Part shown: positions 49,728 through 59,885 of the stretch, piece by piece | Layout of the letters: each line of letters starts with the position of its first letter | Numbering within the stretch: position 1 is the first letter of the stretch | Source: Candidatus Hinthialibacter antarcticus | GTDB lineage: Bacteria; Hinthialibacterota; Hinthialibacteria; Hinthialibacterales; Hinthialibacteraceae | DNA: 64,000 nucleotides | Assembly: GCA_030765645.1 (NCBI GenBank) | Contig: JAVCCE010000019.1 | Span: forward strand, 1 to 64,000 | Direction: 5' to 3' | Translations under genes and position numbers: made by a program | The notes under the pieces: generated by a model | Seen by the model: the letters and a program-made list of their open reading frames with translations, nothing else | The model's database searches: none | Told to the model about the DNA's origin: nothing

Positions 49728-49810
49728 CTCGCTTTGTATACGGAATTATTTAGGATTTATATATGCTTTGGTTAATCAAGCATAATTTTATACTCGGGGA
49801 GAATATAGTT

Positions 49811-51088
49811 ATGATGAGAAAGTTTAGTGTATTAGGTACTGTTGCGGTTGCTTGCTTAATTGCAGCCTCAACATCGTGGAGCCAAGTCGGTATCTTTGAT
49901 GCCGCAGTCGACGTTGATGGCGGAAATTTAGGCGCTGCTGGAAGCACTGAATATGACCCTGCCCTTGATCGCTATACCGTAAACGGTAGTGGTCACGACA
50001 TTTGGGACGCAGCAGATGATTTCCAATTTGTTTATACCGAATGGAGCGGCGACTTTGTTCTGGAAGCGGACACTGGCGTCAGCGGCGGCCTGCCTACCCA
50101 AGGCTGGATCAAGTCGGTATTGATGGCGCGCCAAGACCTCAGCCCGGGTTCGGCGAATGCTGCCACACGACTTCGCCGCGATGGCCAGTACAGCATCCAA
50201 TGGCGTGATGTTGCTGATGACACCGACTCAAAGGGCGGTACAGACGCTGCTTTGCGCGTAACGATCCCTAACCCGTCCCGTCAACGCCTGACCCGCTTGG
50301 GCGATACATTCATTTGCTCCTATCTCAGCGCAGACGGCGAATGGGTTGAAGTTGATCGCCATGACCTCGTTTTGACCGACCCGATCCTGGTCGGCTTGGG
50401 CGTTACTGCTCACGACAACGGTCAAATCGCAACCGGTACATTCACAGGCGTTGACCTTGGCGCTCCAGTTGACGGCACCTCATTTGCCGCCCGCGACATC
50501 GCGTTGCCCGACCGTTTAGGCGCTGAAGGCAGCAGCAATTTTGCAGACGGCGTTTTTACAATCACAGGCAGCGGTTGGGACGTTTGGGAAGCGGATGACG
50601 CCTTCCAATTTGCGTACACCCGCGTACGCGGCGACTTCACCTTGATTGCTGACGTTTCAATTGACGGTGGTTTGGCCTCACAGGCTTGGATCAAATCAAT
50701 GCTGATGGCGCGTCAAAATCTGACCCCGGGTTCACGCAACGTGACCACCCGCGTTCGTCGCGATGGTCAATACAGCATGCAATGGCGCACAATTCAAGCC
50801 GATACCGATTCAAAGGGCAGCACCGCTGGCGATGCGCGTCCGGTTGGTTTGAACCCCAGCAAGCAACGCTTAGACCGCGTTGGCAATACCTTCATTTGCT
50901 CATACATGGATGAAGCAGGCGCATGGGTAGAAGTAGACCGTCATGATGTCGTTTTGTTTGACCCAATTATGGTCGGACTCGGCGTTTGCGCTCACGACAT
51001 CGGCGAAATCGCAACGGGTACGTTTAGCAACATCGAACTGACCTCGACCGGAAAATCCGGCGCAGCAAATTGGGAACTGTTTAACTAA
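49811..51088 (+). CDS. Secreted protein with two tandem homologous domains
   Basis: 425 residues. Signal peptide (MMRKFSVLGTVAVACLIAASTSWSQ) then two copies of a domain of about 190 residues. Parallel segments are YTVNGSGHDIWDAADDFQFVY and FTITGSGWDVWEADDAFQFAY; QGWIKSVLMARQDLSPGS and QAWIKSMLMARQNLTPGS; FICSYLSADGEWVEVDRHD and FICSYMDEAGAWVEVDRHD. The all-beta look is like DUF1349/laminin-G-type sugar-binding folds, by impression. A strong promoter, early GGGGAG ribosome site and strong terminator suggest high expression. Function unknown; extracellular binding is a reasonable guess. Confidence 0.7.
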   Translation: MMRKFSVLGTVAVACLIAASTSWSQVGIFDAAVDVDGGNLGAAGSTEYDPALDRYTVNGSGHDIWDAADDFQFVYTEWSGDFVLEADTGVSGGLPTQGWIKSVLMARQDLSPGSANAATRLRRDGQYSIQWRDVADDTDSKGGTDAALRVTIPNPSRQRLTRLGDTFICSYLSADGEWVEVDRHDLVLTDPILVGLGVTAHDNGQIATGTFTGVDLGAPVDGTSFAARDIALPDRLGAEGSSNFADGVFTITGSGWDVWEADDAFQFAYTRVRGDFTLIADVSIDGGLASQAWIKSMLMARQNLTPGSRNVTTRVRRDGQYSMQWRTIQADTDSKGSTAGDARPVGLNPSKQRLDRVGNTFICSYMDEAGAWVEVDRHDVVLFDPIMVGLGVCAHDIGEIATGTFSNIELTSTGKSGAANWELFN

Positions 51089-54603: not shown

Positions 54604-56337
54604 CTATGGCAATACAATCTCCGTTTCGATGCGCCCGCCCTTGAGCGAGTCAACAACCACTTTCGCTTTGCCGCGCCCGGATACAATAAACTGCACCCGC
54701 TCAGAATCGAGCCCCGAAATGCGGTCTAACATCAGGCGTTCAGGCCGCGCTTTGACGGCTTCGACGCGATTGAAATATTGGTCGATGACCCGACCGCCGC
54801 TGATGACTTCGACGCCCTTGCCGGACAGCGTCACCAAATCGGCGCGATTGATGTTGTGTTTAATGTCCTGCTGTAATCGCGTCGGGATCATGCCCTGGTT
54901 GCGCACTTCGACCCAGACTTTCGCGAGGCCGTCGCGCAGCGGTTCCACTTTGATTTCACCGAATTCAAGCAGCGGCGTTTGTGCAGCATGGTAGAGCGCG
55001 AACGCCATATTGCGATGGCATTCTTCTTCCAGCAAAAACGAAGGCGGCACCCGGCCAAACTCTTTTTTGACGCCGCCAATTTCAATGGCGCCGTATTGCG
55101 GATGGTCGTATGGCTTCCATTCGACCACGCCGTCGTTGAGCAATAGATACCGTAAAAAATCGCCTTCGGCCTTATCGTTTGTATCATTGCTGCGAAACAT
55201 ATTTTTCGGCGTCCACAATTCGTTGGTGAAGGCGGTGATTCCGCGCCCGGCATAGAACCAGTCGAACTGCCCGCCCCAGACCGGGTAGAGGTCTTCCCAC
55301 GAAATCACATTTCGATAGAACGGCAACATCCGCTCGCCGCGTTTGGCGATATCAAACATCACCTGTTCGTCGCCGGGTTCCAACGGCCCGCCGTCGCGGT
55401 TCGGCCCGCGCAAAATATATCCGCCGTAATTATGAAAGGTCAACATTCCAGCAATGTTCGGGTGCGCCAACACAAACTCGCCGACGGCGCGAATCGCGGG
55501 AAACGAGAAGGGGAAATCTTTCGCCCAATACTGGACGTAATGCGGCTGCCAATCGAACGCCCAGTTGCGGTTGGGGTCATAGCCGCCGGGGTTGTCTTCG
55601 TTAACGCGCCCGTCGCCGTCGTTGTCGACTCCTTCATAACCGAGCATCGTATACTCGCCGCGTTCGTCAGCCTCCACCCGCCGCATTTGAAATTCGGGGT
55701 AATCGTTATCAGGAAGATAACGCCCGTCGGGGTCGCGCTTGCGCATCATGGTGATGGAGCCGTCGCCGTCGAGATCATCGAACGGGTCTTCATCAGCGAG
55801 GCCGTCTTTGTCTTCGTCGGTCGGGATCTGCCCCGTACGCGAAGAATGCTGCGTATTGGCGTTGTGGAACCAATAGTCGCGCCCATCGGGATTCACGCTC
55901 GGCAGAATATACAACACACGCGAATCGACCAGGTCGGTAATCAAATCGACCTGGCCGTAGTTTTCACACAAATACCAAGCCGTATACGCGACCACTTCGC
56001 CTGCCTGCACCTCGTTGCCGTGAATATTGCCGTCGATGTACATGCCCGGCTTGCGGTCGGGGTCGCCGATTTCGCGGTTGGTAATCTCCAACACCCACAC
56101 CGGACGCCCCTGGTATGATTCGCCGATGGAATAGAGTTTGGTGATTTTGGGGTACGCGTCATGTAAGCGCTGCAAGATCGAACCCAGCCCTTCGATATCG
56201 TGAAAGCGGTTCCAGGCGACATCGACTTTGCGTTCCGCTGGAGCGCCCAATGCTTTAAAGACGTTCTCATCCTCCGCGAATGAAAGCCCCAAAGAAGCGA
56301 TAACGAAAACACTTAACAGGAAGGTTTTTCGTAACAT
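54604..56337 (-). CDS. Secreted zinc carboxypeptidase (M14 family)
   Basis: 577 residues. Signal peptide about 1-20. The M14 catalytic set is intact: zinc ligands His106 and Glu109 (GNIHGNEVQAGE) and His302 (TFHNYGG), substrate residues Arg257 (DPNRNW), and catalytic Glu373 (FTNELW); NPDG at 149-152 is also conserved. A loop at about 174-192 (DEDKDGLADEDPFDDLDGDG) looks like a calcium-binding repeat. A C-terminal beta domain (about 440-577) follows. AAGGAG precedes the ATG at 56337; the upstream gene ends two bases earlier, so the two are co-transcribed. Confidence 0.9.
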   Translation of the reverse strand: MLRKTFLLSVFVIASLGLSFAEDENVFKALGAPAERKVDVAWNRFHDIEGLGSILQRLHDAYPKITKLYSIGESYQGRPVWVLEITNREIGDPDRKPGMYIDGNIHGNEVQAGEVVAYTAWYLCENYGQVDLITDLVDSRVLYILPSVNPDGRDYWFHNANTQHSSRTGQIPTDEDKDGLADEDPFDDLDGDGSITMMRKRDPDGRYLPDNDYPEFQMRRVEADERGEYTMLGYEGVDNDGDGRVNEDNPGGYDPNRNWAFDWQPHYVQYWAKDFPFSFPAIRAVGEFVLAHPNIAGMLTFHNYGGYILRGPNRDGGPLEPGDEQVMFDIAKRGERMLPFYRNVISWEDLYPVWGGQFDWFYAGRGITAFTNELWTPKNMFRSNDTNDKAEGDFLRYLLLNDGVVEWKPYDHPQYGAIEIGGVKKEFGRVPPSFLLEEECHRNMAFALYHAAQTPLLEFGEIKVEPLRDGLAKVWVEVRNQGMIPTRLQQDIKHNINRADLVTLSGKGVEVISGGRVIDQYFNRVEAVKARPERLMLDRISGLDSERVQFIVSGRGKAKVVVDSLKGGRIETEIVLP

Positions 56338-56339
56338 GA

Positions 56340-58094
56340 TTATTCTCCTTCCCATGTCATGGTCTGTTGGACGGTTCCGCCCAACGCTGAAATTAATGAG
56401 ATCATCGTTTTGCTTCCCGGCGCGGCTTGTAACACGAAGCGCGCCTCTCTCACTTCACCTTTAGCAATCGGCCCGAAGTTAGTACGCGGCTTACCTGCGA
56501 GAAACGCCTCGTCGGGCAGGTCGATCATCAAGCGGGTCGGCAATACGTCCGTGGTGCGTTCGCCGTGATGAAGCACCGTCGGCAGGTAACCAGTATTGGT
56601 GACCCGCACGGTGATTTCATACACGCCGCGCCGTAAGGTTTTTACATCGACGTCTTCAATCGCAACCTGCGGCAGCGTCTGACTTAATTTCATCAAGAAT
56701 TCGACTTGCGTTTGCTTCCAATTATCAAACACAACCGCAGGCGGTGTGGTGAATGAATACGGCGCCCAGCCGCCAACCTCGACCGTCTTGCCGGGGAAAT
56801 CAGGATGATCGACCGGTTGCCATGGAGTGAAATAGGCTTCGGCGCGTTCGCCCAGCCAGGATAAATATTCCACTTCTTCCTTGCCGCGTTTTTCCTCTTC
56901 GACTTCTTCGCCGTCTGTTTCTTCGCTGGCGGCTTCGATGTCTTCAGACGCAGCCTCTTCTTTAGACGCGCCCTCTTCTTCGTTTTCTTCTTTCAATGCC
57001 AGCGCAATGGCGGGGCCCCAACCTGCGGCGCTAAGCCCCATGCGCCCGCGATGAAAATACACCCAATCAACCAATGACCCCGGAACGCTAGTCGACTCGA
57101 CGATTTCTTTTATGCCGACGATATCTCGATACTGCTCGCCCAAGTGCTCGTAATACTTTGCATCGTCTTCTGTGATCTTCGTTTGGGGAACGCGACGCGA
57201 CGTAGCGTCGTCAGACGGCGGCGTTTTTGACAGGTTATCATTCGACGCAAACGTAAACACCACGCCAATATGTGGGTGGTCAATAATAAAGCGCCCCAGC
57301 GCATAGGTGATTTTTTCTTTGAGCGGATACATGCCCGCCTGCGCATCGAACCATGGATACTCAAACGTAAATTGCTTATTAAAATTCACGCCGCCGACGC
57401 CGTCTTCGTTCAACTCTTTGTCGCCGTCGTCATCGCGGCCTTCACGCATGTACACCCACTGTCCGTCTTCGCCTTTGACCGGGTCCGCCTCGATCAAAAC
57501 ACGATCATCATTGGGATGCAGCATCAATGCGCCGTCGGCGTCTTCGATGCGCATCCACGAGACCAAACCGTCGCCGTTGATGTCTTGCGGCGCGTCTTCA
57601 TCCGTGAAACCATCGCGGTCGTCGTCGTATGGAGTAAAGTTTGAATTGCGTTGCAATAACGGCTTCGCAAAATAACGCTCTGACGCATCGGGGTTCAACC
57701 GTGGAATGATATACACCACCACCTCGCCCAAACGCGATTGGTTTTCATCCGCGACAAGTGATTCGGCAAACGCCAGCGCAGCCTCGCCGCCTGCGAGCCG
57801 GTCGCCCTCGACATCGCCCACCACCAACATCGCAGGACGCAGCAGCCGTTCGTCTTTGTCGCCGCCGCCGAGTTCCAACACCCAGACGTCGCGGCCCTGG
57901 TTTGATTTTGCCAGCGAATGAAGATGCACAAGTTTTGAATGGTGTTGGCTGAGCGACTTCACCTCTTGCGTCAGATCGCGATAAGGAGAAAACGCGGGCA
58001 TCGCCTCATTTGCAAATACAGACGCGATAAACATCGCAGCGGCAAGCGAGACAACACAAGTAACAAACGGGTTGTACCGGGGAGAAATTTTCAC
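56340..58094 (-). CDS. M14 carboxypeptidase-like protein with lost active site
   Basis: 584 residues from GTG 58094, chosen because AAGGAA lies six bases upstream and it yields a clean signal peptide (MKISPRYNPFVTCVVSLAAAMF). The fold and layout match the neighbour: GDVEGDRLAGGE aligns with GNIHGNEVQAGE, NFNKQF with DPNRNW, TFASNDN with TFHNYGG. All key residues differ: His to Glu96, Glu to Arg99, Arg to Lys240, His to Ala283, catalytic Glu to Gly358. It also carries the DINGDG calcium-type loop and an acidic insert of about 40 residues (369-408). It is probably a binding or regulatory pseudoenzyme. Confidence 0.78.
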   Translation of the reverse strand: MKISPRYNPFVTCVVSLAAAMFIASVFANEAMPAFSPYRDLTQEVKSLSQHHSKLVHLHSLAKSNQGRDVWVLELGGGDKDERLLRPAMLVVGDVEGDRLAGGEAALAFAESLVADENQSRLGEVVVYIIPRLNPDASERYFAKPLLQRNSNFTPYDDDRDGFTDEDAPQDINGDGLVSWMRIEDADGALMLHPNDDRVLIEADPVKGEDGQWVYMREGRDDDGDKELNEDGVGGVNFNKQFTFEYPWFDAQAGMYPLKEKITYALGRFIIDHPHIGVVFTFASNDNLSKTPPSDDATSRRVPQTKITEDDAKYYEHLGEQYRDIVGIKEIVESTSVPGSLVDWVYFHRGRMGLSAAGWGPAIALALKEENEEEGASKEEAASEDIEAASEETDGEEVEEEKRGKEEVEYLSWLGERAEAYFTPWQPVDHPDFPGKTVEVGGWAPYSFTTPPAVVFDNWKQTQVEFLMKLSQTLPQVAIEDVDVKTLRRGVYEITVRVTNTGYLPTVLHHGERTTDVLPTRLMIDLPDEAFLAGKPRTNFGPIAKGEVREARFVLQAAPGSKTMISLISALGGTVQQTMTWEGE

Positions 58095-58274
58095 GGAATT
58101 TTCCTTCACAAATGTCGTAAAATCGAAAGACAACATACTAACAGCTAAAAATAGAAAACTTCACGCGCTTCATCAAGGCCTTGCGCTTGCATTCGATCTG
58201 CGAGTTACGTTAGACTGTAGAGTTATTCATCCATGCGTCACAATCTGTAATCAAATTGCCCTGGAGGGTTGTTC

Positions 58275-59885
58275 ATGGCGAACCAAATCTCGAATGATAT
58301 GCCGCGCGAAAACTGGGGAACAAAAATCGGCGTGATCCTGGCGGTTGCAGGCAGCGCAGTCGGGCTAGGCAACTTTTTACGCTTCCCCGGCGTTGCCGTG
58401 CAAAACGGCGGCGGCGCATTTATGATTCCCTACTTCATTGCGTTTCTCTTAGTCGGCATCCCCATTTGCTGGGCCGAATGGATTATGGGCCGCCGCGCCG
58501 GGCGCCTCTCCGGCCTCGCTTCAGCGCCGGGCTTGTTCGGCGTATTGACCAACGGCAGTCCATTGCGTTACCTGGGCGCGTTGGGGTTGTTTGTTCCGTT
58601 CATTATCTATTTATATTACGTCTATATCGAGTCATGGTGTCTCGCCTATTTCTTCTTCATGCTTACTGGCGACCTGGGGCTGAAAGATTCAACCATTGTC
58701 GGGGCCTACAGCCAGTTCTTCACCGAATATGTCGGCAATGACGCAACCACATCTGACTTCTTCTCCGGCGTCAGCGTCGCGTTTATATTTTTCGTCATTA
58801 CATTTTTCATTAATTTCTTTTTCATTTACCGCGGCCTGAACCGGGGCATCGAACTCTTCTGTCGCGTGGCCATGCCGGCGCTGATGATCATGGCGGTCAT
58901 TATCGCGATCCGGGTCGTCACATTGGGGTCGTTGAATCCCGACGCGCCCGACCAAACATTCATCAACGGGCTTGGGTATATGTGGAACCCTGACTGGTCG
59001 CAGCTCAGCGAACCCGAAGTATGGATCAACGCCTGCGGGCAAATCTTCTTCTCGCTCTCGGTCGGCTTCGGCATCATTATCACCTACGCTAGTTATCTCA
59101 GCAAAAAAGACGATGTGGTTCTCAGCGGCCTCACAGCCTGTTCGATGAATGAGTTTTGCGAAGTGTGTTTAGGCGGCTTGATTGTCATTCCCTCCGCGCT
59201 GATTTTTCTGGGTATTTCACAAATGGAAGTCGTCGCCCAGCAGGGCACCTTCGGCATTGGCTTTGTCGTCATGCCCGAAATTTTCGACCAGATGCCCGCA
59301 GGCCACTTGTTTGGCGCGATGTTCTTTTTCTTGCTATTTCTCGCGGGCGTCACCTCGTCGCTCTCAATGCTGCAACCAGTCATTGCGTTTTTAGAAGAAG
59401 GCTTCGGCCTCAACCGCAAAGCCTCCGTCGCCATTCTCGGCTTGATTACGTTCCTTGGCGCCAGCTCGATCATTCTATCCCCGGGCCTGACCGCGATGGA
59501 CACGGTCGATAAATACTCAAACAATTTGGGCATTCCACTGTTAGCGCTATTTGAAGTCATCATCTTTATCTTTGTGTTGAAAGTTTCTAATGGAATCAAA
59601 GAAGCCGAACACGGCGCCGACATGAAATTGCCCAAGGCGTTCGGCTACATCATTTATGTCTCGCCCGTGTTTTTGTTGTTGATCTTAGGCTGGTGGGTGA
59701 AAGTGCAAATTGAAGACTACATGGCGGGCACGGCGCCAGCGATGGGGACCATCGAAACCGTATCTATCGTCAGCATGGTTGCGATCTTGTTTATGTTCGC
59801 CCTGTTGCAGAAACTGGCGTGGCCGCGCATGAAACGCCGCCACATGGCGTATAAGAAAATGATGGAAGCGGAACCGTTAGACTAG
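58275..59885 (+). CDS. Sodium-dependent transporter, NSS/SNF family
   Basis: 536 residues with about 12 membrane helices. Helix 1 reads WGTKIGVILAVAGSAVGLGNFLRFPGVAVQNGGGAF, the NSS sodium- and substrate-site signature (the common W-R-F-P is L-R-F-P here). Helix 6 contains ACGQIFFSLSVGFGIIITYASYL with the unwound Ser region, and helix 8 LAGVTSSLSMLQPVIAF. Bacterial members carry amino acids; the substrate is not evident. GGAGGG lies six bases before the ATG at 58275. The small membrane protein that follows 14 bases later is probably its partner. Confidence 0.92.
   Translation: MANQISNDMPRENWGTKIGVILAVAGSAVGLGNFLRFPGVAVQNGGGAFMIPYFIAFLLVGIPICWAEWIMGRRAGRLSGLASAPGLFGVLTNGSPLRYLGALGLFVPFIIYLYYVYIESWCLAYFFFMLTGDLGLKDSTIVGAYSQFFTEYVGNDATTSDFFSGVSVAFIFFVITFFINFFFIYRGLNRGIELFCRVAMPALMIMAVIIAIRVVTLGSLNPDAPDQTFINGLGYMWNPDWSQLSEPEVWINACGQIFFSLSVGFGIIITYASYLSKKDDVVLSGLTACSMNEFCEVCLGGLIVIPSALIFLGISQMEVVAQQGTFGIGFVVMPEIFDQMPAGHLFGAMFFFLLFLAGVTSSLSMLQPVIAFLEEGFGLNRKASVAILGLITFLGASSIILSPGLTAMDTVDKYSNNLGIPLLALFEVIIFIFVLKVSNGIKEAEHGADMKLPKAFGYIIYVSPVFLLLILGWWVKVQIEDYMAGTAPAMGTIETVSIVSMVAILFMFALLQKLAWPRMKRRHMAYKKMMEAEPLD

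Follow-up and report, generated by a model that had tools for sequence, protein, structure and literature searches.

Two adjacent genes of the M14 metallocarboxypeptidase family lie on the minus strand of the window, i.e. the whole 64,000-nucleotide stretch of DNA analysed here. The upstream gene (56340..58094, GTG start) encodes an inactive M14 homologue of 584 aa with a hydrophobic N-terminus, an M14 fold and a C-terminal beta domain; directly downstream lies the gene of a 577-aa active-type M14 carboxypeptidase (54604..56337) that possesses a complete catalytic set. The first-pass annotation placed the two genes two bases apart, and both ORFs are indeed found there, with the stop codon of the inactive gene at 56342-56340 and the ATG of the active gene at 56337. 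The final codons of the inactive gene contain an AAGGAG sequence (56345..56350, minus strand) that probably serves the active gene as its ribosome-binding site, suggesting that translation of the two genes is coupled. No other M14 genes were found in the 5.1-Mb source genome. A gene of the sodium:neurotransmitter symporter family (58269-59885, plus strand) diverges from the pair, and its homologues adjoin the pair in both G002 and G004. The plus-strand region 49763-51088 encodes a secreted-type protein whose translation consists of two internally repeated halves, each some 200 residues long.

Both proteins score above the curated cut-off of Pfam Peptidase_M14 (PF00246; E 4.9e-16 for the inactive and 1.3e-46 for the active protein) and are thus M14 peptidases by descent, sharing 26% identity over 487 columns; no NCBIfam model matches either of them at E <= 0.01. 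The M14 fold of the inactive protein is kept in its AF2 model (pLDDT 88.9, pTM 0.87), which is confident across most of the M14 domain and the C-terminal beta domain, and the best PDB matches found by Foldseek are M14 carboxypeptidases. Carboxypeptidase T and CPD/CPN/CPM-type M14 enzymes provide the closest solved structures to the active protein by sequence and are among the best matches to the inactive protein by fold; these enzymes are active, and in the alignment with carboxypeptidase T the profile positions of the Asp-rich stretch that links the NPDG and NRN motifs have no counterpart. Asp-rich calcium-type repeats are present in both genes of every aligned pair. Most members of the inactive and of the active group have a recognisable export-type hydrophobic N-terminus; several were missed by a crude hydropathy scan at places where the anchor motif failed. 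The acidic insert described for the upstream gene is present (56871..56999, minus strand, about residues 366-408), forming a charged variable loop that is unstructured in the AF2 model, with the lowest confidence at residues 379-393. Its length and sequence are variable, and the G019 relatives have a short version or none, so that it is neither a defining feature of the protein nor a functional novelty.

The catalytic residues of the active protein were assigned by alignment with carboxypeptidase T, using the CPA residue numbers of Table 2 in a 2024 review of inactive metallopeptidases (PMC11266112), as given in the available part of that source. The active protein features the HGNE zinc motif at residues 106-109 (56011..56022), with H106 and E109 as ligands, together with R167 (55837..55839), R257, the third zinc ligand H302 (55432..55434), Y351 and the catalytic Glu E373 (55219..55221), all on the minus strand, and therefore has everything expected of a catalytic M14 carboxypeptidase. 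R257 is the equivalent of R145, and Y351 that of Y248; Y248 and N144 follow the CPA numbering too and are not taken from Table 2. R167 is the equivalent of R127 and is invariant in 34/34 active partners; R199, the arginine of an MMR motif, was considered for this role and ruled out by the carboxypeptidase T alignment. H69, E72, R145, H196 and E270 are likewise found in all 34 active partners. The inactive protein of the window retains none of the four residues H69, E72, H196 and E270 and so falls outside the catalytic M14 enzymes. In agreement with the loss of zinc ligands and catalytic Glu noted in the first-pass annotation, alignment shows that EGDR (residues 96-99, 57798..57809) takes the place of HGNE, A283 (57246..57248) that of H196, and A357 (57024..57026) that of E270, all on the minus strand. 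The loss of the substrate Arg is likewise confirmed, with refinements. The R127 position is deleted, as is that of Y248, both being gaps in the alignment; at the R145 position there is a conservative change to K240 (57375..57377, minus strand), and Arg is kept there in 22/35 inactive proteins.

Across the family the same absence recurs in different guises. Thirty of the 35 inactive sequences keep none of H69, E72, H196 and E270, and the other five keep one; H69 is retained in 1/35 and E72 in 4/35. The column of the third zinc ligand contains Gly in 20/35 and His in none, and Glu never occurs at E270. R127 is a gap in 32 sequences and Pro in three, and the Y248 column is mostly gap. The HxxE motif reads reversed, as ExxH, in 11/35, and its first position is E, D or Q in 28/35. 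The expectation of the first-pass annotation that relatives would carry the same five substitutions was not borne out: the replacing residues vary by lineage, and what is conserved is the lack of the catalytic set. N144 is kept in 23/35 inactive proteins; R145 is lost in 13/35, the window's Lys included, so not all of them share a carboxylate pocket. A second inactive type with an RGDE or RGNE zinc motif was seen in L096, L119 and L120, the active gene coming first in L096 and L120, and L043 (from G019) contains two overlapping tandem M14 genes that both possess the zinc ligands and the Glu.

Within the window's own phylum, the inactive-family profile matches 5 of 14 genomes (the window genome and G002-G005), all from the window's own family, of which G001 gave no match to the profile search. 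The two genes are adjacent in four of the five. The fifth, G003, still has both M14 genes: the active one has the same flanking genes as the pair in the window, homologues of an ABC permease and a sodium:neurotransmitter symporter, and the inactive one is beside a BshC gene on a separate contig, which may be a binning error. The pair recurs in four other genera of the family, with its genes on different contigs in one of them, as well as in many further phyla; recurrence in related genomes was the check that the first-pass annotation had proposed. A scan of the species-level genome collection with a single protein as query gave no matches, and with an alignment as query it returned 33 loci. 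Seventeen of these contain an inactive member (L046-L060, L064 and L073), including L060 with a partly masked upstream gene and two loci, L064 and L073, where a contig end cuts the active partner and the inactive gene, respectively; the other 16 are lone active-type M14 genes. Named carriers include members of Phycisphaerae, Planctomycetaceae, Pirellulaceae, Isosphaeraceae, Siphonobacter, Bacteroidales, Aminicenantes and Gemmatimonadales, and an Oxalobacteraceae MAG that also carries it may represent a mis-binned contig. Among 386 sampled genomes there are 20 with a match at E <= 1e-60; the loci fetched contain pairs in G070, G080, G087, G107, G221, G225, G246, G341 and G369, and lone active genes in G213 and G352. 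Matches at E <= 1e-70, lone active-type genes included, occur in 34/82 genomes of the G341 phylum and 35/296 sampled genomes of the G087 phylum.

Matches at E < 1e-130 were called inactive-like, a cut chosen after both groups had been seen and accompanied by active-site checks in 20 stretches. By this measure 25/35 inactive-like places of the G341 phylum and 28/29 of the G087 phylum (53/64 in total) have a same-strand active-like gene no more than 1 kb away. In 51 of the 53 adjacent cases the inactive gene precedes the active one; the order is reversed in G341 C23, G420 C9 and G459 C109. With start codons assigned by a mechanical rule, the intergenic distance is -4 to +23 nt in 20/34 pairs; for the window, the starts adopted here give +2. 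As for the 11 non-adjacent places, an active-like gene is found on another contig in G403, G442, G457 and G669; none was found for G429 and G464 (inactive gene near a contig end) or G437 (a 3.2-kb contig); the partner is 2.3-3.9 kb away in G433, G434 and G441, with opposite-strand sequence between the two genes; and G404 has an extra inactive gene with no M14 neighbour plus a normal pair elsewhere in the genome. Conversely, 31 of 84 active-like matches are not beside an inactive-like one; some are partners on other contigs or 2.3-3.9 kb off, and the unpaired matches checked in G656 and G663 (C55) proved to be other M14 types. As evidence against its reading, the first-pass annotation had named relatives whose first gene is fully active, or degraded in a way that shows recent random loss; this pattern was not encountered. 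No inactive gene whose active-site columns could be checked is active; a single relative, G593, has a frame-broken copy, which is followed by two active genes. An all-against-all comparison of neighbouring genes revealed no conserved third gene, nothing being common to more than four of the compared loci, those being of the window's family.

Several loci deserve separate mention. In G048 the two M14 genes are split by a methyl-accepting chemotaxis protein gene (L101, 6408-8543, minus strand). In L115 and L116 (L114-L116 correspond to G433, G434 and G441) one of the opposite-strand genes that separate the M14 genes is HSP90-like, judging by its N-terminal sequence. L061 from Calditrichota was considered as an active gene of the pair clade without a partner, a reading that was rejected: its contig begins just before an adjoining, Pfam-confirmed HSP90 gene, and since opposite-strand sequence splits the pair in G433, G434 and G441 of the same phylum, the partner may lie beyond the contig end.

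The inactive gene arose by one old duplication and not by recent local loss. A tree of 88 proteins places all 36 inactive sequences in one group that requires a single label change (SH-aLRT 98; mean of 27.9 for shuffled labels), and the active partners of inactive genes in another; in a 55-row tree built without ten active-site columns, one change still suffices, with support of 86 for the inactive group and 99 for the active partners, both trees being quick trees with some long branches and one very long inactive row. Recent local duplication was rejected, as a tree in which both genes of the window's family, together with those of its nearest relative L046, were joined into one group gave an AU p of 1.9e-6. 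The trees of the two proteins mirror each other over 34 pairs (r = 0.70, reached in 0/10000 permutations), the nearest neighbour is the same in 27/34, and in G019 and G341, which have two pairs each, the matched partners fit better than swapped ones; mirror trees indicate co-inheritance, an outcome that shared ancestry gives too. The dN/dS values (NG86, at dS 0.7-1.4) are 0.11 for the inactive versus 0.08 for the active gene in G019/G041, compared as two fragments, and 0.23 versus 0.18 in G048/G049; G246/G107 gave no dS, and dS is saturated for the window and G004. The inactive gene is therefore constrained almost as strongly as the active one, and its proteins evolve faster, with a mean tree distance of 2.98 versus 1.86.

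Among known systems, the closest parallel in organization is from a different family. The alpha/beta M16B peptidases, including the mitochondrial processing peptidase and the bacterial SPH2681/SPH2682 and TTHA1264/TTHA1265, likewise consist of two homologues, one of them without the zinc motif, and the bacterial pairs are encoded by two-gene operons or neighbouring genes as here, according to the available parts of the 2024 review (PMC11266112) and of a 2025 M16 review that describes the bacterial heterodimers (PMC12731061). The window pair has no M16 domain, Pfam giving M14 only, and while the M16B complexes have been proven by structures, for the M14 pair we infer one. M14 proteins that have lost catalytic residues are also known: AEBP1, CPXM1, CPXM2, CPD domain III and Ecm14 are extracellular and share the M14 fold, like the dead protein. 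Table 2 of PMC11266112 shows both H69 and E72 kept in four of these five and H69 in CPD domain III, in contrast to the counts of 1/35 and 4/35 above. E96 and R99 at the zinc motif place the window's inactive protein outside the known M14 pseudopeptidase types (AEBP1/CPXM, CPD-III and Ecm14). The M14 cases in the available part of the 2024 review are from vertebrates and yeast, the bacterial two-gene operons there being M16, and that part mentions no bacterial inactive M14 case. Among the titles and abstracts retrieved from the open-access literature, none describing a bacterial M14 active/inactive pair was found. The vertebrate and fungal M14 pseudopeptidases are not known to be encoded next to a single obligate active partner.

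Given the side-by-side placement kept across phyla, the dead protein probably serves the live one as a dedicated partner. We lean towards the interpretation that the two genes form one unit, consisting of a secreted zinc carboxypeptidase and a dedicated, catalytically dead sister subunit. Gene order and tight coupling would also suit an inhibitor, a zymogen-like brake or a folding chaperone that is made first and silences or folds the enzyme until export. A/B-type carboxypeptidases are held by prodomains, and the abolition of cleft residues including Y248 and R127 in a protein with its fold kept points the same way; the similar gene lengths and export-type N-termini of both proteins speak for stable subunits rather than a short inhibitor, and the loci with the active gene first run counter to such an order, so we rate this as rather unlikely. 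A slightly smaller chance is given to a dead protein with its own binding job in the same pathway, such as peptide capture or cell-surface adhesion, that is merely co-transcribed and has no contact with the enzyme. Where N144 and R145 are kept a peptide C-terminus could still bind, and the vertebrate M14 pseudopeptidases act as matrix binders according to the available part of PMC11266112, but the near-strict one-to-one pairing with matched trees, even with two pairs per genome, exceeds what a shared pathway would need.

A reading of the dead protein as an enzyme whose metal site has been rebuilt is improbable. The reversed ExxH and the frequent E, D or Q at the first motif position could still bind metal; the third ligand is mostly Gly and never His, E270 is never Glu, the R127 and Y248 columns are largely deleted, and the window motif itself is ExxR. 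Least probable by far is a decaying duplicate heading for loss, a fate that the faster evolution, the frame-broken copy in G593 and the lack of a match in G001 of the window's own family might be taken to indicate; a single ancient origin, intact ORFs across phyla, an intact predicted fold and dN/dS values of 0.11-0.23, which reflect purifying selection, all argue against it.

Under the preferred interpretation of a live enzyme with a dead sister subunit, the two proteins would both be exported and bound to each other. A single-chain fold of the read-through pair, modelled for in-frame loci on an alignment of 8 rows, is of low confidence (pTM 0.46, pLDDT 65). The suggestion in the first-pass annotation that the dead protein may bind substrate for, or regulate, its active partner fits the conserved pairing. 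The dead subunit might capture or position peptide C-termini, or stabilise the live subunit, a role comparable to that of alpha-MPP towards beta-MPP in M16; the retention of N144 and R145 in about two thirds of the inactive proteins makes the handling of peptide C-termini plausible, though not in every lineage. The live subunit would trim C-terminal residues, which the cell would then import, a putative link to the sodium:neurotransmitter-type symporter gene that adjoins the pair in the window's family.

There is an even chance, in our estimation, that these pairs represent an undescribed class of two-subunit secreted M14 peptidases in several phyla, with an obligate dead subunit of one origin, as an independent parallel to the alpha/beta M16 enzymes. 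Partner proteins that are dead enzymes have been studied well in animals and among M16 peptidases, and a bacterial M14 case was not found in the open-access literature. Genes annotated plainly as M14 carboxypeptidases may be incapable of peptidase action, and old, once-evolved pseudopeptidase pairs, even two per genome, provide a natural matched series for the study of how a dead subunit acts.
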